Shown piece after piece: positions 9,213-44,157 of a DNA stretch of 46,063 bases (position 1 is the first letter of the stretch; every line of letters begins with the position of its first letter). A program made the translations under genes and the position numbers. Source of the DNA: an uncultured Alphaproteobacteria bacterium (GTDB lineage: Bacteria; Pseudomonadota; Alphaproteobacteria; HIMB59; GCA-002718135); contig CACHBB010000007.1 in NCBI GenBank assembly GCA_902577945.1, positions 1 through 46,063 on the forward strand, in the 5' to 3' direction. The notes beneath the pieces are model-generated. The model saw nothing but the letters and a program-made list of their open reading frames with translations. It ran no database searches and was not told where the DNA came from.

Positions 9213-9219
9213 TATTTTA

Positions 9220-9378
9220 TTATTTTTTTATAAAAAAAGGTATTAGAAAAACTATACATGCAATAAAAAAAAATAAACTGCCTGCCATTGACCAAAAATT
9301 GCCAATACTAGAAATTATAAAGCAAATTGAAGAAATAATAAAAAGTATCCATCCAAAAAAATTTATATTATTCTTCAT
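9220..9378 (-). CDS. Small two-helix membrane protein, hypothetical
   Basis: This 52-residue ORF encodes two hydrophobic segments, around residues 8-26 (GWILFIISSICFIISSIG) and 31-49 (AGSLFFFIACIVFLIPFF), with a short lysine tail. Its ATG overlaps the end of uup by 11 nt, so it would be translated from the uup transcript. I do not recognise the family. The intact frame through long T runs and the overlap favour a real gene. Confidence 0.55.
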   Translation of the reverse strand: MKNNINFFGWILFIISSICFIISSIGNFWSMAGSLFFFIACIVFLIPFFIKK

Positions 9379-13039: not shown

Positions 13040-14041
13040 ATGTCAGTAAAATCATATAGAGATGCAATTAATGAAGCTCTTCTGCAAGAGATGAAAAAAG
13101 ATGAGAATGTAGTTGTAATGGGTGAAGATGTTGCTGGAGGTGCAGGTACAAATGGTGAGCAAGATGCTTGGGGAGGAGTTCTAGGAGTTACAAAGGGTTT
13201 ATTAGGACATTATGGAAGAGAAAGAGTAATTGATACTCCTATTACAGAAACAGCAATACTAGGCATGGCTTCCGGTGCTGCGTTAACAGGATTACGTCCA
13301 GTTGCTGAATTAATGTTTGTAGATTTTATGGGTGTATGCTTTGATCAAATACTAAACCAAACTGCTAAATTTAGATATATGTTTGGAGGTAAGGCTGTTA
13401 CTCCTGTAACTATAAGAACAATGTATGGTGGTGGTTTAAGAGCTGCAAGTCAGCATAGTCAATGTTTATATCCTATGTTTACTCATGTGCCAGGAATAAA
13501 AGTAGTAGTACCTTCTTGCGCATATGATGCCAAGGGTTTGTTAATACAATCAATTAGAGATGATGACCCAGTTATTTATATGGAACATAAAAATTTATAT
13601 GACGTAACTCAAGAAGTTCCAGATGAGTCTTATACTATACCTTTTGGTGAAGCTAATTTTACAAGAGAAGGAAAAGATATAACATTTATTGGAATGGGCC
13701 AAACTGTTGGAATTTGTAATAAAGTTGCAGACAAATTAAAAAGTGAGGGAAAATCAGCAACAGTCCTTGATTTGCGAACTCTCTCACCTCTTGATGAAGA
13801 TTCGGTTTTGGAAGCAGCTGAAGAGACGGGCAAGGTTGTTATAGTTGATGAGTCTTACCCAAGATGTAATATGGCTACTGATTTATCAGCACTTATATGC
13901 CAAGAATCTTTTTCATCTCTGAAAGCTCCTATAAAAATGGTCACTCCACCTCACACTCCTGTGCCATTTTCTCCTCCTTTGGAAGATTTATATCTCCCAA
14001 GTGAGGAAAAAGTTTATAACGCAGCTAAAGAAATACTATAA
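13040..14041 (+). CDS. acoB: Thiamine-dependent 2-oxo acid/acetoin dehydrogenase E1, beta subunit
   Basis: The 333-residue E1 beta subunit has the N-terminal pyrimidine domain (MGEDVAGGAG, RVIDTPITETAILGMASGAA, RPVAELMFVDFMGVCFDQI) and the C-terminal transketolase domain (ATVLDLRTLSPLDEDSV, KVVIVDESYPRCNM). It pairs with the preceding alpha subunit to form the heterotetrameric E1. A good ribosome site (AGGA, 8 nt before the ATG) is present. Length and domain order are normal. Confidence 0.9.
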   Translation: MSVKSYRDAINEALLQEMKKDENVVVMGEDVAGGAGTNGEQDAWGGVLGVTKGLLGHYGRERVIDTPITETAILGMASGAALTGLRPVAELMFVDFMGVCFDQILNQTAKFRYMFGGKAVTPVTIRTMYGGGLRAASQHSQCLYPMFTHVPGIKVVVPSCAYDAKGLLIQSIRDDDPVIYMEHKNLYDVTQEVPDESYTIPFGEANFTREGKDITFIGMGQTVGICNKVADKLKSEGKSATVLDLRTLSPLDEDSVLEAAEETGKVVIVDESYPRCNMATDLSALICQESFSSLKAPIKMVTPPHTPVPFSPPLEDLYLPSEEKVYNAAKEIL

Positions 14042-14048
14042 ACATAAA

Positions 14049-15164
14049 ATGTCTGAAAGTTTAATTGCCATAACTATGCCTAAGTGGGGCTTAGCAATGA
14101 AAGAGGGGGCAATTTTACAATGGCTTAAAAATGAGGGTGATGAAGTAAAAAAAGGTGAAACATTAGTAGAAATAGAAACAGATAAAGTTGTTAACGAAAT
14201 GGAATCTCCAGAAGATGGTAAATTATTAAAAAAATGTATAGAAACTGACATCAGAGTTCCTGTAGGTTCTTTAATTGCTGTTTATGGCAATGAAAGTATT
14301 TCTGATGAGGAGATTGAAAAATTTATTTCTGAATTTAATGAAAATTTTGTAGTTGAAGATGATGAAGCCGCGGGAGAGGCGAATAAGTATGAAAAGATCA
14401 TGTTAGGTGATATTGAAATTAATTTTAGCAATATAGGGGAAGAAAAAGAAAAAAATATTTTATTTATTCATGGTTTCGGTGGTGATTTGAATAATTGGAT
14501 GTTTAATCAGGAGGAGCTATCTAAAGATTATAATACCTTTGCCATAGACTTACCAGGTCATGGACAATCATCTAAAAATGTAACAGATGGTTCACTAAAA
14601 AATATGGCAAAAATTATTAATGATTTTTGCTCAAAAAATAATATTAGCAAAATAAATTTAGTTGGTCACTCTTATGGAGCTGGAATAGCAATACAAGCAG
14701 CATGTGATTTTAAAGACTTAATAGAATCTCTTACATTAATTAGCCCCATAGGTCTTGGAAAAGAAATAGATGACTCTTATCTTGAAGATTTTATCACTTC
14801 TGAGTCAAGAAGAGATTTAAAGCCAGTATTGGAAAAACTTTATGCTAATAGTGAAATTATTACACGTGATATGGTTAATGAAGTTTTAAGTTATAAAAGA
14901 ATTGATGGCGTTGAAAATTCTTTAAAAATTATGAAAGATCAAATATCAAAATCAAATACTCAACATAATGAACTAAAAGATCAACTAAATGCTTTAGAAA
15001 TTCCTGTAAGTATAATTTGGGGTAAAAATGATAATATAATTCCTTCAAATCATACAGAAAAGCTAAATGAAAAAATTTCAATTCAAATTATTGAAAACTG
15101 TGGGCATATGGCACATACAGAATACGCCTCCAAAGTGAATGAAATAATTAAAAGTACAAATTAG
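14049..15164 (+). CDS. acoC: AcoC-type E2: lipoyl domain fused to alpha/beta hydrolase
   Basis: The 371-residue protein begins with a lipoyl domain (ITMPKWGLAMKEGAI; lipoylated Lys46 in EIETDKVVNEMES). After an acidic linker it continues as an alpha/beta hydrolase with oxyanion-loop FIHGFGGD, nucleophile motif LVGHSYGAG, acid in IWGKNDNIIP and base in CGHMAHTEY. It has no classical acyltransferase (CAT) domain. This architecture is that of AcoC of acetoin dehydrogenases, which transfers acetyl to CoA. I chose the ATG at 14049, 7 nt after acoB; a start at 14001 would add 16 residues overlapping acoB. No E3 gene is nearby, so a shared lipoamide dehydrogenase is presumed. Confidence 0.88.
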   Translation: MSESLIAITMPKWGLAMKEGAILQWLKNEGDEVKKGETLVEIETDKVVNEMESPEDGKLLKKCIETDIRVPVGSLIAVYGNESISDEEIEKFISEFNENFVVEDDEAAGEANKYEKIMLGDIEINFSNIGEEKEKNILFIHGFGGDLNNWMFNQEELSKDYNTFAIDLPGHGQSSKNVTDGSLKNMAKIINDFCSKNNISKINLVGHSYGAGIAIQAACDFKDLIESLTLISPIGLGKEIDDSYLEDFITSESRRDLKPVLEKLYANSEIITRDMVNEVLSYKRIDGVENSLKIMKDQISKSNTQHNELKDQLNALEIPVSIIWGKNDNIIPSNHTEKLNEKISIQIIENCGHMAHTEYASKVNEIIKSTN

Positions 15165-29796: not shown

Positions 29797-30816
29797 TTAT
29801 TTGCAAATATGCACTGATCCTCTTTCTATAATTTTAACCTTAGCAAGAAAATTTTCTATTTTATACTTATTTTTATTTCTATTTATTAGAATATTTATGG
29901 CTTTTTTACCCAATTCTTTGACAGGAAAAGAAACCGCTGTAATTGGCGGTGTGCTTAAGTCTCTTACTAAAGGCCCATCAAATGTGATTATAGATATATC
30001 TTTACCAATCTTTAATTTTAAAAAATTACATGCTTTTATTGCACTTAGTGCAGAAAATTCAGTTGAGCAAATAATTGCAGAAATTTTTTTATTTTTTAAT
30101 AACATACGTTTTATAATTTCAAAACTTTTCTCAGGTTCTTCAAGTTTAACTGAAGCATAATAATTTTTGTTAAAATTAATTTTATTTTTTTTTAAAACTT
30201 TTAAAAAAGAGTTCTTCCTCTCACTTGCAAAATTATATTTTTCAGAAATATTAATATAAGCAATATGTTTATGATTTTTTTTAATTAAATAATCAACAAT
30301 GATTTCTATTGCTCCAGCATTATCTAAATCAACCCATGAGAAATTATTTTCAGATTTAGTTTTTCCCCATGCAACATAATTTACTTTATATTTGTTTAAG
30401 AGTTTAATTCTTAAATCATTTGTTTTGATGTTTTGAAGAACTATGTTTTCAATTTTTTGCTCCAAAATTAATTTTTTATAGGCTTTTATTTCTTCGTCCT
30501 CACTTCTTGCAAATAAAATTTGTAATTGAATGCTTTCTGAAAATAACTCATCAGACATTCCTGATATAAATTGAAAAAAATTTCCTTGATTTAGGACACT
30601 ATTATTTGTACCATAAATTGGAAGAACATATCCAACAGTTTTGGTTTTGCCTGTAGCCAAAACACTGGCATATGGATTTGGACTGTAATTATATTTAGTA
30701 GCAAATTTTTTAACTCTTTGACGAGTTTTTTCGCTAACATCTGAATAACCACCAAGTGCTCTTGAGATTGTTGTTATTGAAAGATCTAACTTTTTTGCTA
30801 ATTCTTTGATATTCAT
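29797..30816 (-). CDS. aglR: LacI-family transcriptional regulator, AglR-like
   Basis: The 339-residue repressor has an N-terminal helix-turn-helix with hinge (NIKELAKKLDLSITTISRAL, VSEKTRQRVKKFATKYNYSP, NPYASVLATGKTKTVGYVLP) and a periplasmic-binding-protein-like effector domain. It is divergently transcribed from aglE. A perfect LacI-type palindrome sits between the two starts, in the aglE promoter. The sequence start and the context match AglR of rhizobial alpha-glucoside operons. The effector is probably an alpha-glucoside, by inference. The effector domain is lysine-rich compared with homologues, in line with the genome. Confidence 0.85.
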   Translation of the reverse strand: MNIKELAKKLDLSITTISRALGGYSDVSEKTRQRVKKFATKYNYSPNPYASVLATGKTKTVGYVLPIYGTNNSVLNQGNFFQFISGMSDELFSESIQLQILFARSEDEEIKAYKKLILEQKIENIVLQNIKTNDLRIKLLNKYKVNYVAWGKTKSENNFSWVDLDNAGAIEIIVDYLIKKNHKHIAYINISEKYNFASERKNSFLKVLKKNKINFNKNYYASVKLEEPEKSFEIIKRMLLKNKKISAIICSTEFSALSAIKACNFLKLKIGKDISIITFDGPLVRDLSTPPITAVSFPVKELGKKAINILINRNKNKYKIENFLAKVKIIERGSVHICK

Positions 30817-30890: not shown

Positions 30891-30919
30891 ATGGTATATT
30901 TATAAATATGGAGGAATTA

Positions 30920-32227
30920 ATGAATAAATTAATTAAAATTTTATTAGCTACTTTCTCATCATTTTTCATAAGCTTCTCTGCATTTGCAGGGGGACACTAT
31001 ACTGGGCCAGATTTAACTGGTCAAAAAGTAGTGATGTTTGGTCCTTGGTTATCGCCAGAACAAGAAACAATGAGAGAAGTAGGTGCTATATTTGAAAAAG
31101 CTACTGGAGCAACTTTTGAATATGGTGGTTCAGATAGTTTTGAACAGCAAGTTATGATTGATCTAAAAGCAGGAAGTGCTGCAGATTTAGTTGTGTTTCC
31201 ACAGCCAGGTCTAGCTGCAAACGCAGCAGCAATGGGAGGATTGGTTCCTCTAGGTGATGACATAAAACAAATGGTTTTAGACAACTATGCTGCTGGTCAA
31301 TCATGGGTTGATCTTTCAACATATGCGGATGAAAATGGTAATGACCAGTTCAATGCAATTTTCTTCAGAACAAATGTTAAAAGTTTAGTTTGGTATTCAC
31401 CAGATAACTTCGAAGACAATGGTTATGAAGTACCAGGAACAATGGAAGAATTAATTGCACTAACAAGACAAATGGCTTCTGATGGAAATACTCCATGGTG
31501 TATTGGTCTTGGTTCAGGTGCAGCAACTGGATGGCCTGCAACTGACTGGATGGAAGATATCATGCTTAGAACACATACGCCTGATGTTTATGATATGTGG
31601 GTATCAAATGAAATGCCATTCAATGATCCAAGAGTTATTGAAGCAATGAATTTCTTTGGAACTTTTGCATTGAACGACAAGTTTGTTAATGGTGGATCTA
31701 AAGCAGTAGCAACTACTGATTTTAGAGATGCTCCAAATGGGCTTTTCACTTCTCCTGCAGAGTGCATGATGCATAGACAAGCAAGCTTTATACCTGCATT
31801 TTTTCCAGAAGGTGTAGAAGCTGGTGTTGACTATGATTTCTTTTATTTCCCAGCATATGCAACTAAAGATTTAGGTACTCCTGTACTTGGAGCTGGAACA
31901 TTAGTAGCTGCTACTAATGATAACCAAGCAACAATAGAGTTCATTAAATTTTTAATGCATCCTGAAGCTCATGAATATTGGATGGCTAAAGGTGGCTTCC
32001 TAACTCCACATAAAGGTGTTGATGGAAGCAAATATGCTAGTGAAACTTTTAGAAAACTAGGTGAAATCTTAACAGGAGCTACAACCTTTAGATTTGATGC
32101 ATCTGATTTAATGCCAGGTGCTATAGGCGCTGGTACTTTCTGGACTGGTATGGTTGATTATACCAACGGAAAATCAGCTCAAGATGTAGCTGACGCGATC
32201 CAAGATAGTTGGGACGCTATTAAATAA
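30920..32227 (+). CDS. aglE: Alpha-glucoside ABC transporter, substrate-binding protein
   Basis: This solute-binding protein of 435 residues has a signal peptide (LLATFSSFFISFSAFAGG). Blocks highly characteristic of AglE are GSDSFEQQVMIDLKAGSAAD, FPQPGLAANAAAMGGLVPLG, LVWYSPDNFEDNGYEVPGT, GNTPWCIGLGSGAATGWPAT, DFRDAPNGLFTSP, HRQASFIPAFFPEG and TFRFDASDLMPGAIGAGTF. AglE binds sucrose, maltose and trehalose-like glucosides in Sinorhizobium. I chose the ATG at 30920 because GGAGG lies 8 nt before it, inside a possible longer start at 30908. Codon use is noticeably less AT-biased than its neighbours, consistent with high expression. Confidence 0.93.
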   Translation: MNKLIKILLATFSSFFISFSAFAGGHYTGPDLTGQKVVMFGPWLSPEQETMREVGAIFEKATGATFEYGGSDSFEQQVMIDLKAGSAADLVVFPQPGLAANAAAMGGLVPLGDDIKQMVLDNYAAGQSWVDLSTYADENGNDQFNAIFFRTNVKSLVWYSPDNFEDNGYEVPGTMEELIALTRQMASDGNTPWCIGLGSGAATGWPATDWMEDIMLRTHTPDVYDMWVSNEMPFNDPRVIEAMNFFGTFALNDKFVNGGSKAVATTDFRDAPNGLFTSPAECMMHRQASFIPAFFPEGVEAGVDYDFFYFPAYATKDLGTPVLGAGTLVAATNDNQATIEFIKFLMHPEAHEYWMAKGGFLTPHKGVDGSKYASETFRKLGEILTGATTFRFDASDLMPGAIGAGTFWTGMVDYTNGKSAQDVADAIQDSWDAIK

Positions 32228-32241
32228 TTCCTCTTGTTGAA

Positions 32242-32277
32242 ACAGGCGAACAATTAACTTGTTCGCCTGTCTTTTTT
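32242..32277 (+). terminator. Strong hairpin plus T run after aglE
   Basis: Arms ACAGGCGAACAA (32242-32253) and TTGTTCGCCTGT (32259-32270) pair perfectly over 12 bp with the loop TTAAC, followed by C and six T. It sits between the binding-protein and permease genes, so it is probably a partial terminator or 3'-end stabiliser that raises binding protein over permease. Confidence 0.88.
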
Positions 32278-32293
32278 ATATATTTAATCACTA

Positions 32294-33277
32294 ATGACTA
32301 TCCTGAATTTAGTATTTATCGTTTTTTTAGGAATATTATTTTTTATAGCGTACTTTCATATTTCAAATTATATTTTAGATATTTATGGTAACAAATCTCT
32401 AAAAAAATATAATTTAGAAAATTCTATAAGAGTTGTAGTTTTTATAGCACCTGCATTTATAGTTTTATTTATATTTATTTTGTACCCTGTCTTTGAAACT
32501 ATCAGGCTCAGTTTTTATGATAAGTTTGGAAGAGAATTTGTTGGTCTTTACAACTATAAATGGGCAGTAAATGATCCTGAATTTAGAAGAAGTATATTTA
32601 ATAATTTAGTATGGTTGCTTGTTGTTCCTACTTTAAGTACCTTTTTTGGATTAGTCATTGCTAACTTAGCTGATAGAATTTGGTGGGGCTCAATTGCAAA
32701 ATCTATAATATTTATGCCCATGGCAATATCATTCGTAGGAGCAGGAGTAATTTGGAAATTTATTTATGAATATAGAGGGCCAGAAAATACACAAATAGGA
32801 TTACTTAATGCAATTATAGTTTCACTAGGTTATGAACCACAAGCATGGTTAACAATACCAATGTGGAATAATTTCTTTTTGATGGCTATAATGATTTGGA
32901 TACAGACTGGACTAGCTCTGGTTATTTTTAGTGCTGCATTAAGAAGTATACCAAAAGAAATGCTTGAAGCAGCAAGAATTGACGGTGCCAGTGAATTTAA
33001 AATATTTTTTTCAATTATTATTCCGTATTTAGAACAAACAATCCTCGTTATTTGGACCTTAATTACAATAATTGTTTTAAGAATATTTGATATTATTTTT
33101 GCGATGACAAATGGAGAATGGCAAACAGGGGTTTTAGCTAACTTAATGTATGATTGGATGTTTAGAGGTGGTGGGGACTCTGGGAGAGGAAGTGTTTTAG
33201 CAATTGTTATTATGATTGGTGTAATACCAATCTTAGCGTGGAATTTATATAAACATAGACAGGAACAAAAAATTTAA
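32294..33277 (+). CDS. aglF: Alpha-glucoside ABC transporter, permease AglF
   Basis: The 327-residue permease of the MalF type has a short N-terminal helix, then six core membrane segments and the EAA cytoplasmic loop (EMLEAARIDGASEFKIFFSI) that contacts the ATPase. The region VAPAFIVLFIFILYPVFETI-like (residues 50-72) and TNGEWQTGVLANLMYDWMFRGG near the C-terminus resemble AglF. The last codon overlaps the start of aglG by one base. It imports the sugar delivered by AglE. Confidence 0.9.
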   Translation: MTILNLVFIVFLGILFFIAYFHISNYILDIYGNKSLKKYNLENSIRVVVFIAPAFIVLFIFILYPVFETIRLSFYDKFGREFVGLYNYKWAVNDPEFRRSIFNNLVWLLVVPTLSTFFGLVIANLADRIWWGSIAKSIIFMPMAISFVGAGVIWKFIYEYRGPENTQIGLLNAIIVSLGYEPQAWLTIPMWNNFFLMAIMIWIQTGLALVIFSAALRSIPKEMLEAARIDGASEFKIFFSIIIPYLEQTILVIWTLITIIVLRIFDIIFAMTNGEWQTGVLANLMYDWMFRGGGDSGRGSVLAIVIMIGVIPILAWNLYKHRQEQKI

Positions 33278-34416
33278 TGAAGAAATTTTCTATGTCATCT
33301 CTTTTATCTCAATTATTATTGCTTTTATTTGTGATTATATGGATCATTCCTACATTTGGCCTCTTTATTAGCTCTTTAAGAGATAAAGATTTACTAGCCA
33401 TAAGTGGATGGTGGACATCCTTAACTACAACAGAAGTAAATGAAATTTATAGAATGTCAGGAATGGAAAGCCAAATTGAAGAAGATGGTTATTTTAAAAT
33501 TAAAGGTAAGTTATTTGAAGATAATTCAGGAAAAAAAATAGAAAGTTTTGGAATAACCTCAAAGAATATTAATGAGTTTAATATTGGTGATGTTGCAATA
33601 TTTAAAGATGAGAGTGAAGTGTTTCTAGATGAAAATGGAAATTATGAATGGAGATCAAAATCTGAATTTAAAAAGAAAAAAGGGAAAAGATTATTTACCA
33701 CATCATTAAGTCCCCCTTCGTTTACTTTTGAAAATTATAGAGAAGTTTTATTTAAAGAAGGTATTGGTAGAGCTTTTGTTAATACAATGGCTGTTGCTTT
33801 ACCCTCAACACTAATACCACTAATAATTTGCTCTTTTTTTGCATATTCATTAACCTGGATGAAATTTTATGGAAGAGATACCCTCTTAGCAATAATAATA
33901 GCATCACTTGTTGTTCCTCTTCAAATGTCTTTGATACCAATTCTGACTATATATAATGATTTTGGGGCATTTTTTGGAGTTGCTGCTAAATCTTACCCTG
34001 GTGTTTGGATGGCACATACTGGTTTTGGATTAGCGTCAACTACTTTTCTATTAAGAAATTTTTTAAAAAGCTTGCCCAACGAAATGATGGAAGCAGCAAA
34101 AGTAGATGGTGCCTCACACTATGATATTTTTATTAGAATAATAATACCACTTTCAATACCGGCTTTTGCTTCAATATTTATTTTACAATTTTTATGGTGT
34201 TGGAATGACTTACTAGTTGGGCTAGTATTTTTAGATCAGGTTCCAAGTGAAATTATCTTAACAGCAAAATTAAAAGAATTACTTGGCTCAAGAGGAGAAA
34301 ACTGGGAAATTTTAACAACTGGTGCTTTTGTCTCAATGACAGTCCCTCTTTTTATATTTTTTGCTCTTCAAAGATACTTTATAAGAGGTCTAGTTGCAGG
34401 ATCAGTAAAAGGTTAA
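33277..34416 (+). CDS. aglG: Alpha-glucoside ABC transporter, permease AglG
   Basis: The 379-residue permease of the MalG type has the EAA loop EMMEAAKVDGASHYDIFIRI and a C-terminus ending RYFIRGLVAGSVKG, standard for the family. Between the first helix and the second there is a large hydrophilic, periplasmic insertion at about residues 36-150, which is why the protein is longer than MalG; AglG relatives share this. It overlaps aglF by one base. After aglG the expected aglA and aglK do not follow; aglK lies 8.7 kb further on. Confidence 0.9.
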   Translation: MKKFSMSSLLSQLLLLLFVIIWIIPTFGLFISSLRDKDLLAISGWWTSLTTTEVNEIYRMSGMESQIEEDGYFKIKGKLFEDNSGKKIESFGITSKNINEFNIGDVAIFKDESEVFLDENGNYEWRSKSEFKKKKGKRLFTTSLSPPSFTFENYREVLFKEGIGRAFVNTMAVALPSTLIPLIICSFFAYSLTWMKFYGRDTLLAIIIASLVVPLQMSLIPILTIYNDFGAFFGVAAKSYPGVWMAHTGFGLASTTFLLRNFLKSLPNEMMEAAKVDGASHYDIFIRIIIPLSIPAFASIFILQFLWCWNDLLVGLVFLDQVPSEIILTAKLKELLGSRGENWEILTTGAFVSMTVPLFIFFALQRYFIRGLVAGSVKG

Positions 34417-34468: not shown

Positions 34469-35476
34469 ATGGAACAAGTTGTTAAGCAAACTCAACCAAG
34501 AAAATCATCTAAAAAGTGGTTTAGGGCCGAAATTGATAAAAATGTTTTCAAAGAATTAACTAAAACTAGTGATCTGCCCGGTTGGAAACATATAATCATA
34601 TTTGCAATTACATTATCTACTCTAGGATACTTATGTGGTTTGTCCTGGGGTTCATGGTACTTTATACCAATTTATCTTGTATACTGTACATTTTGGGGTG
34701 GCGCAGATGCTATCTGGCATGAGTGTGGTCATAGAACTGCTTTTAAATCAAGAAAACTGAATGACTTCTTTTATTATATTGCTAGTTTTATGAATAATTT
34801 CGAACCAATTAGATGGAGATGGTCACATAAACAACATCACAACTATACAGCTTCAATTGACCCTCATGATTTTGAAGTTGAAGAAAGTATATTTTCTAGA
34901 CCAACACTAACCAGCTTTATACTCAGATTTATTCCAGGAATAGGTTTTTTTAAATTAAATAATTCTTTATATAAAGAAATTCTTCAACACGCATTTGGTA
35001 TTGAAACAAAAGTTATTAAGGAATGTATACCTAAAGATCAGAAAAACTTATGTTTTCTAGTTTCTAGAATTTTTGTTTTTCTTTGGATAACCATAATAAT
35101 ATTTTCAATTTATATAAATTCTTTACTACCTATTTTTTTATTTTTAATACCTAAATTTTTTACATCATTAAACGCAGTTTGGGGCTTAACTCAGCATATG
35201 GGTTTAAAAGAAGATACTAAAGATCATAGAGAGTCTACTAGATCAGTTCGTTTAAATCCAATCTTTAGTTTTATTTATTGGAAGATGGAATATCACATCG
35301 AGCATCATATGTTTCCAACGATACCGTCTTACAATTTGCCAAAATTGCACGAACATATTAAAGATCAGCTTCCAAAGCCACAAACACTTTATGAAGCATA
35401 TAAAGACATAATACCTGCAGTAATTAAAAAATCTAAAAACCCGGATTATTATATTCCAGTAAAAATTCCTGCTTAA
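34469..35476 (+). CDS. Fatty-acid desaturase family membrane protein
   Basis: The 335-residue integral membrane protein has the three histidine boxes of di-iron desaturases: HECGHR, HKQHH and HIEHH, with four hydrophobic segments between. The final box, EYHIEHHMFPTIPSYNLPKLH, is the classic front-end/acyl-lipid desaturase sequence. Beta-carotene-type hydroxylases/ketolases and omega-hydroxylases share the boxes, so the substrate is uncertain. It begins 52 nt after aglG on the same strand and may be read from the agl promoter. The flavodoxin on the opposite strand ends 10 nt beyond it. Confidence 0.83.
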   Translation: MEQVVKQTQPRKSSKKWFRAEIDKNVFKELTKTSDLPGWKHIIIFAITLSTLGYLCGLSWGSWYFIPIYLVYCTFWGGADAIWHECGHRTAFKSRKLNDFFYYIASFMNNFEPIRWRWSHKQHHNYTASIDPHDFEVEESIFSRPTLTSFILRFIPGIGFFKLNNSLYKEILQHAFGIETKVIKECIPKDQKNLCFLVSRIFVFLWITIIIFSIYINSLLPIFLFLIPKFFTSLNAVWGLTQHMGLKEDTKDHRESTRSVRLNPIFSFIYWKMEYHIEHHMFPTIPSYNLPKLHEHIKDQLPKPQTLYEAYKDIIPAVIKKSKNPDYYIPVKIPA

Positions 35477-35486
35477 ATAAAGATAT

Positions 35487-35924
35487 TTATATTAAACTTA
35501 AAAACTTTTCGGACCATTCCATTGATCCCTCGGTATCAAAATCACACTCTTGCCTATCTAAAATTCTGTTTGCTCCAAGTTCTTTAAGCTTATCATCAAT
35601 AATCTTACCTGCATTGCAGAAGTCATAGTGAGATGAGTCACCAAGAGCCAGTACACCGTATTTTAAGTTAGAAAGATTTAATTTAGTCAAACTAGACAAA
35701 TTTTCCCAAAAAGTTAATCCATTGTCAGGAACTTCTCCATCACCAGTTGTGGAAGTTACAATCATAAGTTTGCTAATTTCTTGAAGTTTATCCATACTAA
35801 TATCGTCAAGTTCAAAAACTTGGCAACTTACCCCTTTATCTTTTGTCAATTTTTCAATATCAAAAGCTAATTCCTCAGCAGTACCTGTTTGAGTGCCGTA
35901 AACTATATGCAAAATACCTGACAT
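35487..35924 (-). CDS. Flavodoxin-domain protein (MioC/CPR-FMN type)
   Basis: The 145-residue single-domain flavoprotein has the FMN phosphate loop YGTQTGTAEELA, the isoalloxazine loops TSTTGDGEVPDNG and ALGDSSHYDFCNAG, and a C-terminal helix. It resembles MioC and the FMN domain of cytochrome P450 reductases or sulfite reductase more than long-chain flavodoxins. It is a cytoplasmic electron carrier, partner unknown. It is convergent with the desaturase and divergent from the aldehyde dehydrogenase across a 129-nt AT-rich spacer with no other visible feature. Confidence 0.9.
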   Translation of the reverse strand: MSGILHIVYGTQTGTAEELAFDIEKLTKDKGVSCQVFELDDISMDKLQEISKLMIVTSTTGDGEVPDNGLTFWENLSSLTKLNLSNLKYGVLALGDSSHYDFCNAGKIIDDKLKELGANRILDRQECDFDTEGSMEWSEKFLSLI

Positions 35925-36053: not shown

Positions 36054-37490
36054 ATGGAAAATAGAAACTTTATTAATGGAAATTTTATTGACTCAATTTC
36101 AAATAAGAGTGTCGATGTAATTAATCCAGCAAATCAATCTTTAGTTGGTAGCATAAATGAAGCAATGGACGATGAGATAGATCTAGCAATAGATTCTGCA
36201 AAAAATGCTTTTCAAAAAAGAATTCTTCAAGACATGGATGCAAAAGTTAAATCAAAAATGATGAGAGCAATAGGTGCTAAACTTCGAGAATATAGTGTTG
36301 AAGGAGGTAAACTTTTAAGTTTAGAAAATGGAAAAACTATAAGTCAATGTGTTGGTGAATTTAAAGGTGCTGCAGACACATTTGATTTTTATGCAGGCAT
36401 GACAGATAAAATAGAAAACAAACTTATACCTTCTGGTAAAGATACTTTTAATTACGTAGTACTAGAACCTTTTGGTGTTAGTTTACAAATCATTCCATGG
36501 AATTATCCTGTATCCATTTTCTCTGGCATGGTGGCACAAAATTTAATTGTTGGAAATACAATTGTTATTAAGCCCCCAGAATTATGTCCACTCTCAACAA
36601 ATTTTTATGGAAGAATATTTAAAGAAGTTGGCGTCCCAGAAGGCATAATAAATATTGTTCATGGTCGTGGAGAAGTTACAGGAAGAAAATTAGTCAAACA
36701 CAATGGAATAGATTATATTGTATTTACAGGATCTCCTGAGGTAGCTTCTGAAATTCTAAAAGAAACAGCCGATAGAATTATTCCATGTCATTTTGAATTA
36801 GGGGGTAAGTCTGCAGCAATTATATATCCTGATGCTGATATAGATAAAGCTGTTGATAGTACGGTAAAAGGCATCTTTAAGCCAAATGCTGGCCAAATAT
36901 GTGTTGCTATGTCAAGAGTGATTGTGCACCCTAAAATTAAAGATGAGTACATGTCAAAATTAATTTCTAAAACAAAAAAACTCAAAATAGGTTCAGGTGC
37001 GGATGCTGATACGGATGTTACACCTCTGATTTCAAAAGATCAAATACAAAGGGTATCTAATTATGTTAAGTCAGGCATTCAGTCAGGAGCTGAATTAACA
37101 CTTGGTGGCAATGAACATGATAATAAATTAGGTAATTTTTATGAGCCAACAATTTTTAATAATGTTTCAACTGACTCTACTATTGCTCAAGAAGAAATAT
37201 TTGGACCTGTAACATCTGTATTCGATTTCGAAGATGAGGAACAGGCAATTGACATAGTAAATTCTACAAACTATGGGTTAGCATCTGGTGTATTTACAGC
37301 TGATGATCAAAAGGCTAAATGGACTGCTGAAAGAATTCAAGCAGGTATTATTTGGCATAACGATTGGTTTGTAGATGGAACTAACTTACCAGGTGGTGGT
37401 TATAAAAAATCAGGTTATGGAAGAGATGGTGGAATGGATGGAATCTATAGCCATGGCCAAACAAAAAGAGTAAGTAAAAGACTCTACTAA
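36054..37490 (+). CDS. NAD(P)-dependent aldehyde dehydrogenase
   Basis: The 478-residue enzyme shows the ALDH blocks QIIPWNYPVSIFSGM, KPPELCPLST, FTGSPEVASEIL, general base Glu in CHFELGGKSA, nucleophile Cys in NAGQICVAMSRV, QEEIFGPVTSVFDF and GGYKKSGYGRDGG. The closest type is betaine/gamma-aminobutyraldehyde/lactaldehyde-like ALDH; the substrate cannot be fixed. The next gene starts after a 7-nt gap, so the two form a unit, followed by the second sugar importer. A role in oxidising an aldehyde derived from that substrate is inference. Confidence 0.92.
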   Translation: MENRNFINGNFIDSISNKSVDVINPANQSLVGSINEAMDDEIDLAIDSAKNAFQKRILQDMDAKVKSKMMRAIGAKLREYSVEGGKLLSLENGKTISQCVGEFKGAADTFDFYAGMTDKIENKLIPSGKDTFNYVVLEPFGVSLQIIPWNYPVSIFSGMVAQNLIVGNTIVIKPPELCPLSTNFYGRIFKEVGVPEGIINIVHGRGEVTGRKLVKHNGIDYIVFTGSPEVASEILKETADRIIPCHFELGGKSAAIIYPDADIDKAVDSTVKGIFKPNAGQICVAMSRVIVHPKIKDEYMSKLISKTKKLKIGSGADADTDVTPLISKDQIQRVSNYVKSGIQSGAELTLGGNEHDNKLGNFYEPTIFNNVSTDSTIAQEEIFGPVTSVFDFEDEEQAIDIVNSTNYGLASGVFTADDQKAKWTAERIQAGIIWHNDWFVDGTNLPGGGYKKSGYGRDGGMDGIYSHGQTKRVSKRLY

Positions 37491-37497
37491 TTCAATT

Positions 37498-38292
37498 ATG
37501 AAAAAATTAACCGTTAAAGATATTTTGGAATGCAAAGGAGTAAGAAAACTCTCAGAAGTTTACACTCATAATCCTCTAGAAGCAGAAGCTTGTGAACTTG
37601 CTGGAATAGAAATGATTGTTTCATCAGAAGTAAATGATATCAAAGGTATTAGAGAGGCAGCTAAAAATACTTTTTTGACTGTAGGTCTCCCATATGGAAC
37701 ATACACAAATAATAATGATATTGTTAAAAGATCATTTGAATTAATTAAATTAGGCGCTGATGCAATTTACTGCCCACAAGGACTAAATCTTATAAAAGCA
37801 ATAACAGATGAAGGAATTCCAGTTGTAGGGCATTCAGGATTCATTCCTTATAAGTCAACATTGTATGGTGGCTTTAAAGCATATGGAAAAACATCAATGG
37901 AAGCTCAAAAAATTTATGATCAGTGTCTAATGTTGCGTGACGCTGGAGTGTTTGCTATTGAAATAGAGATAGTCCCATTTAAGGTTGCAGATTTAATATC
38001 TAAAAATATAGATATTTTTATGATTGGTATGGGAAGTGGTACTGGATGTGATGCTCAATATTTATTTGCAGAAGATATCTTAGGGTATAATACAGGTCAC
38101 ATACCAAGACATGCAAAAATATATTCTGATATTGGTGAGGATTATAAAAGAATTAAAAATAAATCTATAGAAGCATTCAAAAAGTTTAAAAAAGATGTTG
38201 ATGAGAAAAAATACCCGTCTAAAGAACACGATATAAATATATCTGATACAGAATTTAATATTTTTACAAAAAAATTTGAGCTTAACAAATAA
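37498..38292 (+). CDS. PanB-fold (ketopantoate hydroxymethyltransferase-like) protein lacking PanB catalytic residues
   Basis: The 264-residue TIM barrel of the PEP-mutase/ketopantoate hydroxymethyltransferase superfamily aligns with PanB at VVGHSGFIPYKSTLYGGFKA, the IEIEIVP glutamate strand and IGMGSGTGCDAQYLFAEDIL. The PanB metal-ligand motifs differ: GDS is SSE (42-44), DLPFGSY is GLPYGTY (63-69), and the KLEGG lysine/glutamate motif is YCPQG (91-95). Genuine PanB activity is therefore unlikely. An aldolase or lyase on a 2-oxo acid is possible but is inference. It follows the aldehyde dehydrogenase and precedes the second importer. Confidence 0.75.
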   Translation: MKKLTVKDILECKGVRKLSEVYTHNPLEAEACELAGIEMIVSSEVNDIKGIREAAKNTFLTVGLPYGTYTNNNDIVKRSFELIKLGADAIYCPQGLNLIKAITDEGIPVVGHSGFIPYKSTLYGGFKAYGKTSMEAQKIYDQCLMLRDAGVFAIEIEIVPFKVADLISKNIDIFMIGMGSGTGCDAQYLFAEDILGYNTGHIPRHAKIYSDIGEDYKRIKNKSIEAFKKFKKDVDEKKYPSKEHDINISDTEFNIFTKKFELNK

Positions 38293-38396: not shown

Positions 38397-39392
38397 ATGA
38401 AAATTTTAAAAATTATTTTGGCTTCTATTTTTTTTATACCAATTTCGTATCAATCAATAGCAGCCCCAACTGGGCAAGATTTAGGTGATAAATGGTGTTC
38501 AAATGTAAAAATGCATTTTTACGCTGGTGGACCTGAAGCAGGTGGTTTTGCAGGTATTGTTGCAGCTGGTGCCATGAATGCTATTAGAGATACTGGTGCT
38601 GATGCAGAAATCATTTATTCAGAATGGGATTTTGAGAAAATGGTTCGTCAATTAAGAGAGTCTGTAGGACTAGGAGTTGATGCTATCGCAATGATGGGTC
38701 ATCCTGGTGATGAAGCTTTAATGCCTTTAGCTAGACAAGCTGCAGAAAACGGAATTTTAATGACTTATCAAAATGTTGACCCATCAGGTGTAAGAGCAAA
38801 ATATGGCGGTGGTTACGTTGGTGCCAATCTCGCTACTCAAGGTAAAGCATTAGCTAGAGAGGCAATTAGACAATTTGGATTTCAAGCAGGAGATCATGCT
38901 ATAGTTATGGTACCAATAGGTGACTATGCTAGAGCTCAAAGAGAAGATGGTGCAAGAATTATCTTTGAAGAACATGGTATGACAGTCACTGTTTTAGATG
39001 GGGATCCAAAATATGCTTCAGATCCTAATATGACTATTCCAATTTTTTCAGCAGCATTAAATGCTAATCCTGAAACTAAAGTAATTGTTCATTCTGGAAG
39101 CGATATTATGAATGTTGCAGAAGGAATTGCTAAAGCTGCTGGTTATGGACCAAATGAATTACTTCAAATTGGTTTTGATACAAGCCCACAAATTATGTCA
39201 TCATTTGAGAAAGGTTACGTTCACTTAACTTCTGATCAACAACCATTCTTGCAGGGATATTTGCCTGTATTGTCTTTATGTCAAACAGCTGTACTTGGAA
39301 CTGGTGCCATTAATCAAGATACTGGTGCGGGTTTTGTAGACACAAATAATTATCAAGCTGTAAAAGCACTTGCAGACGCAGGTTTAAGATAA
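38397..39392 (+). CDS. Ribose-type sugar ABC transporter, substrate-binding protein
   Basis: The 331-residue type-I periplasmic binding protein has a signal peptide (IILASIFFIPISYQSIAAP). Its core shows two Rossmann lobes: FYAGGPEAGGFAGIVAAGAM, VDAIAMMGHPGDEALMPLAR, GGYVGANLATQGKALAREAI and a hinge QIGFDTSPQIMSSFEKGYV. This is the PBP4/RbsB group that binds simple sugars or polyols; the ligand is unknown. A GGGAGG site and lower AT bias suggest high expression. ATPase and permease genes follow directly, so the importer is complete. Confidence 0.88.
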   Translation: MKILKIILASIFFIPISYQSIAAPTGQDLGDKWCSNVKMHFYAGGPEAGGFAGIVAAGAMNAIRDTGADAEIIYSEWDFEKMVRQLRESVGLGVDAIAMMGHPGDEALMPLARQAAENGILMTYQNVDPSGVRAKYGGGYVGANLATQGKALAREAIRQFGFQAGDHAIVMVPIGDYARAQREDGARIIFEEHGMTVTVLDGDPKYASDPNMTIPIFSAALNANPETKVIVHSGSDIMNVAEGIAKAAGYGPNELLQIGFDTSPQIMSSFEKGYVHLTSDQQPFLQGYLPVLSLCQTAVLGTGAINQDTGAGFVDTNNYQAVKALADAGLR

Positions 39393-39447: not shown

Positions 39448-40194
39448 ATGGAAAATATAATTCAACTTAATCAAGTAACCAAAAAATTTGGAGGTATAAC
39501 TGCTTTAAATAAAGCATCACTCCATGTAAAAAAGGGAGAGGTTGTTGGATTAATTGGAGACAATGGAGCAGGTAAATCAACATTGATAAAGACATTGGTA
39601 GGTGTTTATAGTCCTGATGAAGGTGAAATTCTTATCAGAGGGAATAAAACTAGTAGCTGGAATGCATTAAAAGCTAGAGAGGCCGGTATAGAAACTGTCT
39701 TCCAAGACCGGGCTTTAACACCTCAACAATCTATAGTTAAAAATATTTTCATGGGCAAAGAATTAAGGTACCCCTTTGGTTTTATTAGAGAAAAAGAACA
39801 AATTAATGAAGCAAATAGATTGATTAGAGAAATAGGTTTTACATCAAAATTAATAAATGCAGAGTCACCTGTTGGAAATTTATCTGGAGGTGAGAGACAG
39901 GGTGTTGCAATAGCAAGAGCTATATATAACAAAGCAGAATTAATAGTGCTCGACGAGCCAACAAATAATTTATCTTTAAACGAAACTCAAAAAGTTTTTG
40001 ATTTTGTATTAAATGTAAAGAAATCAAATAGATCTGTTCTATTTATCGGTCATAATATTTATCACGTTTATGATATTTCTGATAGATTTGTAATATTGGA
40101 CAGAGGGGAAGTTGTTCACGAGTTAAATAAAGAAGATATATCTACTCCTGAGGAATTGATGAAGATAATGAGAGAAACAATAATCAAGCATTAA
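39448..40194 (+). CDS. Ribose-type sugar ABC transporter, ATPase (single cassette)
   Basis: The 248-residue ATPase has Walker A LIGDNGAGKSTLIK, signature LSGGERQGVAIARA, Walker B LIVLDEPTNNLS and switch His in LFIGHNIYHV. Many RbsA-type ATPases are double-cassette proteins of about 500 residues; this is a single cassette, as in FrcA/XylG-short systems, and would work as a homodimer. The Asn-Asn after DEPT replaces the usual Ala-Ala. It is followed after 2 nt by the permease. Confidence 0.93.
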   Translation: MENIIQLNQVTKKFGGITALNKASLHVKKGEVVGLIGDNGAGKSTLIKTLVGVYSPDEGEILIRGNKTSSWNALKAREAGIETVFQDRALTPQQSIVKNIFMGKELRYPFGFIREKEQINEANRLIREIGFTSKLINAESPVGNLSGGERQGVAIARAIYNKAELIVLDEPTNNLSLNETQKVFDFVLNVKKSNRSVLFIGHNIYHVYDISDRFVILDRGEVVHELNKEDISTPEELMKIMRETIIKH

Positions 40195-40196
40195 AA

Positions 40197-41168
40197 ATGA
40201 GTAATAAAAACTTAATAAATAATGCGTTTCATAAAAATGGACGTGCACTTGGAAGTATTGGTTATTTTATTTTATTAATGGCAATATTTTTTATTGGAGC
40301 ACCAGAGGCCTGGATAAGACCTAATTTACATCAATCAGTATTTGTGATGATGCCAACATTAATTTTTTTAACTATCCCACTTGTTTTTTTAGTTGCATCA
40401 GGTGAAATAGATTTATCTTTTGCATCAACATATGCTGTTGCAGCATATGTATTTGCATTGTTGGTTAAAAATGGTGTGGATCCAGCAATTTGTTTTGTAG
40501 CAGGTGTTTTCACTGGAGCCGCAATAGGGGCACTAGTCGGAACATTGATAGTTGTTTTTCGGCTATCATCTTTAGTTGCTTCACTTGGTGTTTTATTTTT
40601 GTTAAGAGGTGTAATACTACTTTTAACAAAAAGTAGATCAATAACAATTATGGAAGTAGAGAATCATTGGATTTATCCACTACTTGTTGGAAAATTTTAC
40701 GGTTTTCCAATGCAAATATTTTGGGCAGCAATATTCATAATTTTTTGTTACTATTTTTTCAATAAACATGTTTTTGGTATTCATATCCAACATGTTGGAG
40801 ATAATTCAGTAAGTGCAGAGCAAATGGGTATAAATGTCAACGCTGTTAAGATTAAAGCATTTATGTTTGTTGGTGTTGGTGCAGCGCTTGGAGGGATATT
40901 TACTACACTTATAACCTACACCTTTTTTCCTACACAGGGCTTTGGATATTTGTTACTTGCCCTTGCAGCAGTTTTTGTAGGCGGAACTCCTTATTGGGGA
41001 GGTTTAGGCACAATTGTTGGGGCAGTATTTGGAGTAGGAGTAATTGCATATATGGAAGTTGGTATAATTGCAATTGGTTGGAGTGGAGAATGGAGACAAT
41101 TTTTCAATGGTCTAATAATCTTACTTGCCCTTCTTGGTCATAGATTGCATGGAGAAAGAGTAAGGTAA
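40197..41168 (+). CDS. Ribose-type sugar ABC transporter, permease
   Basis: The 323-residue RbsC/FrcC-type permease has 8-10 membrane segments and the family blocks VASGEIDLSFASTYAVAAYV, SSLVASLGVLFLLRGVIL, AEQMGINVNAVKIKAFMFVGVGAALGG and AVFVGGTPYWGGLGTIVGAVFGV. It forms the importer with the preceding binding protein and ATPase. It is followed by thuA after 10 nt. Confidence 0.92.
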   Translation: MSNKNLINNAFHKNGRALGSIGYFILLMAIFFIGAPEAWIRPNLHQSVFVMMPTLIFLTIPLVFLVASGEIDLSFASTYAVAAYVFALLVKNGVDPAICFVAGVFTGAAIGALVGTLIVVFRLSSLVASLGVLFLLRGVILLLTKSRSITIMEVENHWIYPLLVGKFYGFPMQIFWAAIFIIFCYYFFNKHVFGIHIQHVGDNSVSAEQMGINVNAVKIKAFMFVGVGAALGGIFTTLITYTFFPTQGFGYLLLALAAVFVGGTPYWGGLGTIVGAVFGVGVIAYMEVGIIAIGWSGEWRQFFNGLIILLALLGHRLHGERVR

Positions 41169-41178
41169 TAACTTTGAT

Positions 41179-41958
41179 ATGACAAATATAATTGTTTGGA
41201 ATGAAAATATTCATGAAAGAGAAAATCAAGAAGTTAAAAATATTTATCCAAAAGGAATACATAACTGTATCAAAGATTTTTTATCAAACGAAAAATCTTT
41301 TAATATTCAAACTGCAACTTTAGAACAAGATAATAACGGACTTAATGAAGAAAATTTAAGTAAATGTAATGTTCTAATATGGTGGGGGCACAAAGCCCAT
41401 TCAAAAGTTTTAGATAAAACAGTTGATTTAGTACAAAGGCGAGTACTCGAAGGAATGGGTTTAATAGTGTTACATTCAGGGCATCATTCTAAAATTTTCC
41501 AAAGACTAATGGGAACAAATTGTAATCTTACATGGCGCGAATATGGAGAAAGAGAAAGATTATGGATCTGTAATCCCGCACATCCAATTTGCCAAGGACT
41601 TGATCCATATATCGAAATAGAAATGGAAGAAATGTATGGTGAACCATTTCAAGTTCCATCACCTGATGAAACACTTTTTACAAGTTGGTTTGAAGGTGGA
41701 GAAACATTTCGATCAGGGCTTTTATATAAAAGAGGCAATGGTCAAATTTTTTATTTTCGCCCCGGTCACGAAGCTTATCCAACCTACCATAATCTTAATA
41801 TTCAGAAAATTATTAAAAACGCTATAAATTTTGTAAAACCTAAAAATAATAACATATGGGAAGATATTCATTCACCTGTTCCTAAAAGTAACAGACCTAA
41901 ACCTATTGAGGATATTAAAAAAAGAGGTATTTCAGTTGGGCATCCTACTGACAAGTAA
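41179..41958 (+). CDS. thuA: ThuA-family (trehalose utilisation) protein
   Basis: The 259-residue glutamine-amidotransferase-like fold is typical of ThuA: VWNENIHERENQEVKNIYPK, DVLIWWGHKAHSKV-like block (CNVLIWWGHKAH), GLIVLHSGHHSKIFQRLMGT, LTWREYGERERLW, MEEMYGEPF and FRPGHEAYPTYHN. In rhizobia ThuA works with the dehydrogenase ThuB to turn trehalose and related disaccharides into 3-keto derivatives. The ThuB-like gene starts 5 nt downstream. Confidence 0.9.
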   Translation: MTNIIVWNENIHERENQEVKNIYPKGIHNCIKDFLSNEKSFNIQTATLEQDNNGLNEENLSKCNVLIWWGHKAHSKVLDKTVDLVQRRVLEGMGLIVLHSGHHSKIFQRLMGTNCNLTWREYGERERLWICNPAHPICQGLDPYIEIEMEEMYGEPFQVPSPDETLFTSWFEGGETFRSGLLYKRGNGQIFYFRPGHEAYPTYHNLNIQKIIKNAINFVKPKNNNIWEDIHSPVPKSNRPKPIEDIKKRGISVGHPTDK

Positions 41959-41963
41959 ATAAA

Positions 41964-43025
41964 ATGAAAATTGGCATAGTTGGAACAGGAAATATATCAA
42001 CACGACATTTAGAGGAATTTAATAAAATAGATAATGTTAGAGTTGAAGCTGTTTGTGATACCAATAAAGCTAATTTGGACAGATTTTTATCTCTAAACAA
42101 AAGAAATGAAATAAGAGGTTATTCTAATTTAGATGAAATGCTTGAAAAAGAAAAAAACTTTGATGGTATAAGCAATACTACACCGGATAGATTTCACAAA
42201 GATACAACCCTGCAGATTTTAGGTAATGGATATAATGTTTTCTGTGAAAAACCATTAGCAGAAAATTATAAAGATGCAAAAGCAATGGTTGATGCTGCTA
42301 TACGATCTAAAAATATAAATATGGTAAATTTTACTTACAGAGAATCTAGTGCCTACCAAAAACTTGTTGAAATAATTCAATCAGGTGTAATTGGTTTGCC
42401 CAGACACGTAAATGCTTGTTATTATCAATCTTGGTTAACTAGCAATAAATGGGGAAATTGGAGAGATGAAGATAAATGGCTGTGGAGACTTTCAACTAAA
42501 CATGGGAGTAATGGTGCTTTAGGAGATACAGGCGTTCATATATTTGATTTTGCTGTAAACGCTGTAGGAAATATCAAACAAATTTTTGCAGACTTAAAAA
42601 CATATCATGACAAAGGAGAAAAAATTAGAGATTATGTATTAGATGCTAACGATGGTTTTAATTCTTTGGTACGATTTGAAAACGGTGCGATAGGAACAAT
42701 AACTAATTCTAGATATGCAACTGGTCATGCAAATACATTAATTTTAGAGGTTTTTTGTACTAAGGGTAGTATTAAAGTGGAACTTGATGAAGAGAGAAGA
42801 AAGTGGTCAACTCTGCATATTTGTGAAAAAGAAAATGTTAATGAAATGTCCTGGGAGACATTAGAATGTCCAAAAACCCCAAATAATTATCAAAATTTTA
42901 TCAAATCAATACAAAATAACAAAAATATGCAGCCAGATTTTGTTCAAGGTGCAAAAATCCAAAAAATTATTGATTCTTGCATCAAAAGTAATGACAATAA
43001 TTCCTGGATTGATATAAATAACTAA
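41964..43025 (+). CDS. Gfo/Idh/MocA-family dehydrogenase, ThuB-like
   Basis: The 353-residue NAD(P)-dependent oxidoreductase has an N-terminal Rossmann domain (IGIVGTGNISTRHLEEF), the FCEKPLAEN signature with catalytic Lys, NMVNFTYRESSAYQ, and the C-terminal GDTGVHIFDFAV block with a candidate catalytic His. Its position directly after thuA and before aglK matches ThuB, which oxidises C3 of disaccharides. Other inositol- or sugar-dehydrogenase activities remain possible. Confidence 0.88.
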   Translation: MKIGIVGTGNISTRHLEEFNKIDNVRVEAVCDTNKANLDRFLSLNKRNEIRGYSNLDEMLEKEKNFDGISNTTPDRFHKDTTLQILGNGYNVFCEKPLAENYKDAKAMVDAAIRSKNINMVNFTYRESSAYQKLVEIIQSGVIGLPRHVNACYYQSWLTSNKWGNWRDEDKWLWRLSTKHGSNGALGDTGVHIFDFAVNAVGNIKQIFADLKTYHDKGEKIRDYVLDANDGFNSLVRFENGAIGTITNSRYATGHANTLILEVFCTKGSIKVELDEERRKWSTLHICEKENVNEMSWETLECPKTPNNYQNFIKSIQNNKNMQPDFVQGAKIQKIIDSCIKSNDNNSWIDINN

Positions 43026-43077
43026 TTTTGAACTTATGTAAGTTCATCACTTGAAAGATCGCTCAAAGGAGGATGAA

Positions 43078-44157
43078 GTGGCAGATATAAATATAAATAC
43101 AGTTAATAAATATTTTGGTGATGTACATGTAATTAAGGACATATCACTGGATATTAAAAGTCAATCATTTACAGTTTTAGTAGGACCAAGTGGATGTGGT
43201 AAATCTACAATGTTAAGAATGATTGCAGGTTTAGAAGATATAAACTCAGGAACAATTTCAATTGATGGTCAAGTTGTAAATGATCTTCCACCTAAGCAAA
43301 GAAATATTGCTATGGTTTTTCAATCATATGCACTTTATCCTCATATGACAGTTTTTGATAATATGGCCTTTGGTTTAAAATTAGAAAAAAGATCAAAAGA
43401 TGAAATTAATGATAGAGTTAATGAGGCAGCAAGAATATTACAAATTGAAGATTATCTCAAAAGAAAACCAAAACAACTTTCTGGTGGTCAAAGACAAAGA
43501 GTTGCAATAGGAAGAGCAATTACAAGAAAACCAAAAGTATTTCTTTTTGATGAGCCTCTATCTAATTTAGATGCTGCTTTAAGAGTACAAATGAGGGTTG
43601 AATTAGCTAAACTACATAATGAGTTAGAAGCTACAATGATATACGTTACGCATGATCAAACTGAAGCGATGACACTTGCAGATGATATTGTTGTATTAGA
43701 TACTGGTATAGTTTCTCAAAAAGGATCTCCTCTACAGCTTTATGACAAGCCAAATAATATGTTTGTTGGAGGTTTTATTGGCTCACCTAAAATGAATTTT
43801 ATTTCAACAAAAATTACTTCTAAAAGTGGAGACTCTACTGAAGTTGATTTAATGGGTATGTCAAAAATTGCAGTGCCAAAAATATCAGCATCATCTTCAG
43901 AAGGTGACTCTGTTACTCTTGGTATTAGGCCTGAACATCTACTTGTTAATCAAGATTCTGATGGAAGCTGGGAAAGTAAAGTTTTTGTAGTAGAGAAATT
44001 AGGATCAGGTACTTTTTTATATTTAGAAAAAGATGGTGAGCCCTTAGTTGCTGAAACAGAAGGTCATTCTAATATTAAAGTTGGTGATACCGTGAAAGTC
44101 GGATTTCCATCTAATAGGTGTCATTTATTTGACAGCTCAAATCAAGCATTCAAATAA
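43078..44157 (+). CDS. aglK: Alpha-glucoside/multiple-sugar ABC transporter ATPase (AglK/UgpC type)
   Basis: The 359-residue MalK-type ATPase has Walker A LVGPSGCGKSTMLRM, Q-loop MVFQSYALYPHMT, signature LSGGQRQRVAIGRA, Walker B VFLFDEPLSNLD, switch THDQTEAM, and a C-terminal TOBE/OB regulatory domain with SVTLGIRPEHL. I chose GTG at 43078, 7 nt after AAAGGAGG; an in-frame TTG at 43051 would place that ribosome site inside the gene. It is the only MalK-type ATPase here, so it should energise AglEFG 8.7 kb upstream. Confidence 0.92.
   Translation: MADININTVNKYFGDVHVIKDISLDIKSQSFTVLVGPSGCGKSTMLRMIAGLEDINSGTISIDGQVVNDLPPKQRNIAMVFQSYALYPHMTVFDNMAFGLKLEKRSKDEINDRVNEAARILQIEDYLKRKPKQLSGGQRQRVAIGRAITRKPKVFLFDEPLSNLDAALRVQMRVELAKLHNELEATMIYVTHDQTEAMTLADDIVVLDTGIVSQKGSPLQLYDKPNNMFVGGFIGSPKMNFISTKITSKSGDSTEVDLMGMSKIAVPKISASSSEGDSVTLGIRPEHLLVNQDSDGSWESKVFVVEKLGSGTFLYLEKDGEPLVAETEGHSNIKVGDTVKVGFPSNRCHLFDSSNQAFK

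Follow-up and report, generated by a model that had tools for sequence, protein, structure and literature searches.

The gene at 37498-38292 of the window (the whole stretch of 46,063 nucleotides that was analysed) encodes a PanB-like protein of a family that has lost the metal and keto-acid site of PanB. The best explanation, which we hold to be somewhat more probable than otherwise, is that the protein is a metal-free descendant of PanB that moves the one-carbon unit from a demethylation onto tetrahydrofolate (THF); it would have abandoned the chemistry on the keto acid while retaining the one-carbon half of what PanB does. A wider proposal, put forward tentatively, is that the PanB-derived family, large and misannotated, is the missing THF-dependent formaldehyde-activating enzyme (5,10-methylene-THF synthase). 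It may act as a plug-in for oxidative O-demethylation with both di-iron and Fe/2OG demethylases, serving C1 recovery from rhizopine in rhizobia and, in up to six copies per small AEGEAN-169/HIMB59-like genome, the harvesting of methylated ocean sugars.

The open reading frame occupies exactly 37498-38292 on the plus strand and encodes 264 amino acids. PF02548 was its only Pfam match (E 2.1e-44, 152 bits), and there was none to PF08714 (Fae). In a Foldseek search with the AF2 model (mean pLDDT 95.1), ranks 1 to 28 were all PanB, and a putative phosphonopyruvate hydrolase came next with lyases of the PEP-mutase superfamily; structural alignments with PanB (1m3u, 1oy0) gave 22% identity. The assignment as a PanB homologue in the preliminary description is thus borne out by both the Pfam and the Foldseek matches. 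The gene starts 7 bp past an aldehyde dehydrogenase gene and ends 104 bp ahead of a gene for a sugar-type binding protein, in agreement with its earlier placement between an aldehyde dehydrogenase and a sugar importer in a sugar operon. The operon and its divergent regulator comprise the following genes.

29797..30816, minus strand: LacI-family regulator, divergent from the operon (PF00356, PF13377)
30908..32227, plus strand: sugar-type extracellular binding protein (PF01547, E 1.1e-14)
32294..33277, plus strand: ABC permease (PF00528)
33277..34416, plus strand: ABC permease (PF00528)
34469..35476, plus strand: MocD-type FA_desaturase-family oxygenase, candidate demethylase (PF00487, E 5.6e-38; histidine boxes HECGH, HKQHH and HIEHH)
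35487..35924, minus strand: flavodoxin, candidate electron donor (PF00258, E 4e-33)
36054..37490, plus strand: aldehyde dehydrogenase (PF00171, E 1.7e-148; ELGG and GQIC motifs present)
37498..38292, plus strand: PanB-like protein, 264 aa, candidate formaldehyde/hydroxymethyl to THF transferase (PF02548, fold, clade)
38397..39392, plus strand: sugar-type periplasmic binding protein (PF13407; best NCBIfam match the rhizopine binding protein NF052284, far below cut-off)
39448..40194, plus strand: sugar ABC transporter ATPase with one ABC domain, RbsA-like (profile matches)
40197..41168, plus strand: sugar ABC permease, RbsC-like (PF02653)
41179..41958, plus strand: ThuA-family protein (PF06283, E 3.7e-32)
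41964..43025, plus strand: Gfo/Idh/MocA oxidoreductase (PF01408, PF22725)
43051..44157, plus strand: UgpC/MalK-type ATPase (NF008653, 470.6 bits, over the cut-off of 432)

The UgpC/MalK-type ATPase probably serves the binding protein and permeases encoded at 30908-34416. Elsewhere in the window, the product of the gene at 14001-15164 joins a lipoyl domain to an alpha/beta hydrolase; the gene lies behind E1 dehydrogenase genes, an arrangement that resembles an acetoin dehydrogenase operon.

Residues are numbered as in E. coli PanB and were compared in an alignment that contained 32 canonical and 49 PanB-like proteins as representatives. From structure work on the E. coli enzyme we take D45, D84 and E114 to be the Mg2+ site and K112 to be a substrate contact. 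PanB depends on a metal for enolising its keto acid and uses 5,10-methylene-THF, according to the available text of PMC7770189. Compared with E. coli PanB, the window protein has SSE at the GDS region, G63 in place of D84 of the DLPF motif, and Y91-C-P93-Q in place of the KxEGG motif. These three changes (GDS to SSE, loss of the second Asp of DLPF and replacement of the Lys/Glu motif) had been pointed out in the preliminary description and are all real; a deletion of about 20 residues in the loop after D45 had been missed. Whereas D45, D84, K112 and E114 were kept in 32/32 canonical proteins, none of the 49 PanB-like representatives had D84, K112 or E114, and only one had D45. The stretch corresponding to E. 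coli residues 46-72 was 27 residues long in all 32 canonical proteins, as against 6-8 residues in 40 of the 49 PanB-like ones. H136 and E181 (E. coli numbering) were retained in all 49. Two further residues, E155 and H205, were invariant in the PanB-like family, and their canonical counterparts were V and F, respectively, each in 31 of 32 proteins. As judged from the alignment, the residue changes are a trait of the whole PanB-like family and not a local accident. We do not favour a metal site rebuilt from E44 of the SSE motif, the residue aligned with D45 being variable (P in 16, E in 8, A in 6, and others, n=49). Since E155 and E157 both lie in a single strand of the AF2 model (153-157), their side chains should be on the same face; H112 lies near the end of another strand (109-113).

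A tree of representatives, built by a "quick" method, placed 32 canonical and 49 PanB-like proteins on opposite sides of one branch (SH-aLRT 100). Each of the 42 members of alignment A1 had a match to the NCBIfam PanB models with an E value no higher than 1e-5. The curated cut-offs, applied to the window protein alone, lay far above its scores (130.6 against 207.55 bits and 139.7 against 272 bits). The nearest named relatives are uncultured marine Alphaproteobacteria and MarineAlpha5; together with the genome size, they make HIMB59/AEGEAN-169 the probable order. Of the 20 genomes surveyed from this order, 16 hold between them 36 strong PanB-like genes, with up to six per genome. Among 72,556 plasmid records, 295 had a match over at least 80% of the query, some of which may be canonical PanB. 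On this sequence evidence, the PanB-like clade is a widespread family separate from canonical PanB.

Public records label the relatives as 3-methyl-2-oxobutanoate hydroxymethyltransferase, which would make the window protein an ordinary PanB for pantothenate synthesis. We reject this reading, against which the preliminary description had also argued: the protein falls below both NCBIfam cut-offs, its canonical metal and keto-acid site is destroyed, and contig 13 of the source genome (G000; 1.2 Mb, 82% complete) carries another panB that is canonical, with D45, S46, D84, K112 and E114 intact. A canonical-type panB match was likewise found in 14 of the 16 genomes of the order that hold a PanB-like gene.

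Removal of L002 and L003 (the window gene again) and of two fragments or distant matches (L024, L180) from 191 ORFs left 155 PanB-like and 32 canonical genes, labelled in the locus counts by the best tblastn query, with which the tree of representatives agrees. The 155 still hold short-flank copies of genes that are also present with longer flanks, and the cleaner figure comes from the 106 loci whose flanks reach 3 kb. Oxygenases were counted by searching every ORF of every locus with profiles, gene calls having missed the window desaturase. An oxygenase was encoded within 3 kb in 97 of these 106 loci, which are mostly from Rhizobiales, include many close Mesorhizobium relatives and are not independent, compared with 0/32 canonical loci, the flanks of which extend only about 1.5 kb; the fair comparison, at 1.4 kb, gave 91/140 PanB-like and 0/29 canonical. 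The profile searches detected no oxygenase in 9 of the 106 loci. The oxygenases found include membrane di-iron proteins (MocD-type FA_desaturase, the most frequent, and FA_hydroxylase) and Fe/2OG proteins (PhyH, and TauD beside PhyH), often accompanied by a MocE ferredoxin and a MocF reductase. On the tree of the PanB-like clade, the oxygenase labels FAHYD, PHYH and DESAT need 4, 5 and 8 changes, respectively. In Rhizobium johnstonii 3841, for example, the genes ahead of the PanB-like gene encode a member of the fatty acid desaturase family, a MocE ferredoxin and an FAD reductase.

Within the 20 genomes of the window's order, a MocD homologue lay within 3 kb of 23 of the 36 PanB-like genes, where 0.79 would be expected, and chance co-location is thereby ruled out. 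In all eight genomes with a single copy of each gene, the pair was 11-2025 bp apart. Several of the other 13 PanB-like genes adjoin PhyH or FA_hydroxylase instead (L125, L129, L130 and L132). Some of these genomes, including L118 (4000-9200), L131, L132, L134 and L135, have dense clusters in which two PanB-like genes share about 10 kb with several genes for desaturase, FA_hydroxylase or PhyH, as if several demethylases had been stacked.

The electron carrier varies even among close relatives of the window. The position of the flavodoxin gene is taken by a MocE-type ferredoxin in five of nine such loci, by flavodoxin in two, and by neither within 6 kb in two, so that two kinds of carrier seem to serve the same oxygenase. 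The window (35487-35924, minus strand) and L034 (7073-7381, minus strand) exemplify this apparent swap of unrelated carriers, flavodoxin and MocE-type Rieske ferredoxin, in one operon. In another close relative, L037, flavodoxin was found and the desaturase was not. L036 has at 8793-10109 a single gene of about 440 codons instead of the ThuA and Gfo/Idh/MocA pair, as do L037-L041 at the same position; in L036 this gene encodes a family 4 glycosyl hydrolase. In L124 (7461-8567) and L137 (9673-10779), the neighbour of the PanB-like gene, at the place of the oxygenase in other loci, is a gene encoding 369 amino acids. The L124 product had no Pfam match, and this gene could be an unrecognised partner of the PanB-like protein. 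Many Mesorhizobium loci, such as L050 (10912-13388, minus strand), have ornithine cyclodeaminase-family and histidine-ammonia-lyase-type genes just downstream on the opposite strand. Three PanB-like members (L175, L176 and L179) have neighbours that are not obviously connected with demethylation.

Importers, regulators and sugar enzymes differ among PanB-like loci, and the oxygenase system is the constant neighbour, joined in some loci by a formyl-THF deformylase. Because the oxygenase system is constant and the sugar genes are variable, the chemistry common to the family more likely concerns a C1 unit than a sugar skeleton. The same observation bears on the function suggested in the preliminary description, that of a new aldolase or lyase for a 2-oxo acid derived from sugar. 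The PanB fold, the retained E181 and H136, and the presence in the operons of genes for sugar import and sugar conversion would fit such an enzyme, its metal site rebuilt or absent; however, the Mg2+ and keto-acid residues are lost throughout the PanB-like family, and we now regard that suggestion as unsupported and quite improbable.

MocDEF removes the methyl group of rhizopine as an O-demethylase. Rhizopine is 3-O-methyl-scyllo-inosamine, and mocDEF participates in its catabolism (available text of PMC10107442 and PMC6668481); word searches of the main texts of these two papers returned no mention of a hydroxymethyltransferase or purU. In three rhizobial rhizopine-type loci, from S. meliloti, R. 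lentis and P. zundukense, the gene order is mocD-mocE-mocF-panB-like-purU with MocR ahead of it, the PanB-like gene directly following mocF and preceding purU (L198 2617-8712, L199 3828-9989 and L117 5614-11730). In S. meliloti RCAM1115 (L117), MocR scored 756.5 bits against the rhizopine equivalog cut-off of 650, MocE and PurU were also over cut-off, and MocE is followed by MocF, PanB-like and PurU; the desaturase of this locus is split over two ORFs. The R. lentis and P. zundukense loci, known by annotation and with MocR unscored, have the same order and one annotated desaturase gene. PurU was found near 9/155 PanB-like genes and 0/32 canonical genes. The window operon resembles these loci in its MocD-type gene, MocA-family oxidoreductase and sugar-binding protein, but it has flavodoxin in place of MocE, no adjacent MocF, and LacI instead of MocR; with its binding protein at 65 bits against a cut-off of 420, we do not class it as a rhizopine locus.

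The rhizopine-type loci also bear on whether demethylation takes place at all. The PanB-like protein might use the hydroxylated oxygenase product itself as the substrate of a different reaction, for instance after hydroxylation of a sugar C-H bond: the top NCBIfam matches of the desaturase-like proteins are GntB and DesB, which are hydroxylases or desaturases, and the oxygenase reaction is itself a prediction. We think this very unlikely, given that the substrate of the rhizopine-type loci, which also carry PurU, is an O-methyl compound (available text of PMC6668481), and that unlike oxygenases have the same PanB-like partner.

Under our preferred reading, the operon would take up an O-methylated sugar or polyol, and the di-iron (elsewhere Fe/2OG) oxygenase, with electrons from flavodoxin or a MocE-type ferredoxin, would hydroxylate the methyl group to give R-O-CH2OH, which would yield R-OH and formaldehyde. 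The PanB-like protein would pass the hydroxymethyl or formaldehyde unit to THF, forming 5,10-methylene-THF through metal-free acid-base catalysis; candidate catalytic groups are H112 and E157, which are retained, and E155 and H205, which are specific to the family. FolD and Fhs (in rhizobia, PurU) would then convert 5,10-methylene-THF to formyl-THF and formate. We infer three parts of this scheme: demethylation by the operon's oxygenase, THF as the acceptor, and the catalytic mechanism. The reasoning is that one active site is conserved while the oxygenase and its electron carrier differ from locus to locus, as do importer and regulator, which argues that the PanB-like protein acts on a shared product. 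That product would be formaldehyde, or the hydroxymethyl hemiacetal preceding it, because it is common to oxidative demethylations. A formaldehyde:THF enzyme is suggested because folate and a carbon acid are the two partners between which PanB moves a hydroxymethyl group; the keto-acid half of this reaction would have been lost and the folate half kept.

The same demethylation pathway could also run without THF, the PanB-like protein promoting breakdown or rearrangement of the hemiacetal, handing formaldehyde to aldehyde dehydrogenase or joining it to another acceptor. This would explain the oxygenase link without a folate site, PurU stands beside only the nine PanB-like genes mentioned, and the aldehyde dehydrogenase encoded 7 bp upstream in the window could oxidise formaldehyde itself, which counts against the THF reading. 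On the other hand, the aldehyde dehydrogenase cluster of the window is near the PanB-like gene in only 10/84 loci, and both the co-location with PurU and the descent from PanB speak for folate; we therefore consider a THF-independent route possible, though doubtful. A folate route to formate exists in the window's order, since FolD was found in 19 and Fhs in all 20 of its genomes, and the Fae and FrmA alternatives are mostly missing: Fae was matched in 0/20 and FrmA was over cut-off in 2/20, leaving 18 with neither, although these are draft genomes and the absences are soft. No PurU at cut-off was found in the 20 genomes.

Compared with canonical PanB, whose known reaction is the transfer of a hydroxymethyl unit, the PanB-like family shares the fold, H136, E181 and the C-terminal motifs; it differs in lacking D45, D84, K112, E114 and the post-D45 loop, in having E155 and H205, in its oxygenase operons and in forming a separate clade. 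The available text of He et al. 2020 (PMC7073904) describes spontaneous condensation of formaldehyde with THF as too slow to matter and leaves open a THF-using Fae variant. PanB was considered there as a promiscuous catalyst, and deletion of panB and ltaE in E. coli had no effect on formaldehyde-dependent growth, so that for canonical PanB the proposed activity is not seen in vivo. Fae (PF08714) resembles the PanB-like protein in the proposed type of reaction, condensation of formaldehyde with a pterin C1 carrier, which for the PanB-like protein is deduced from context, but it belongs to an unrelated family and uses tetrahydromethanopterin (PMC7073904, available text). Another parallel is the P450 demethylation of 6-O-methyl-galactose in marine Flavobacteriia, which likewise involves an O-methyl sugar, an oxygenase with ferredoxin and reductase, and release of formaldehyde. 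That system employs a P450 rather than a di-iron or Fe/2OG enzyme, its neighbouring alcohol dehydrogenases were inactive on formaldehyde, and a PanB-like gene is not mentioned in the available text (PMC10033563).

A literature search limited by licence returned no description of a PanB-like protein in demethylation operons, which is not proof of absence. The toxic formaldehyde from oxidative demethylation needs to be captured, and the conserved pair of oxygenase and PanB-like protein is a concrete candidate, open to assay with material from cultured rhizobia. If the proposal is true, the PanB-like protein would be the folate counterpart of Fae, the meaning of "panB" would be altered in many alphaproteobacterial annotations, and two genes, panB-like and purU, would join the rhizopine pathway. 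Methylated sugars and polyols would then be predicted substrates of marine bacteria that are noted for broad sugar transport (available text of PMC10308909).
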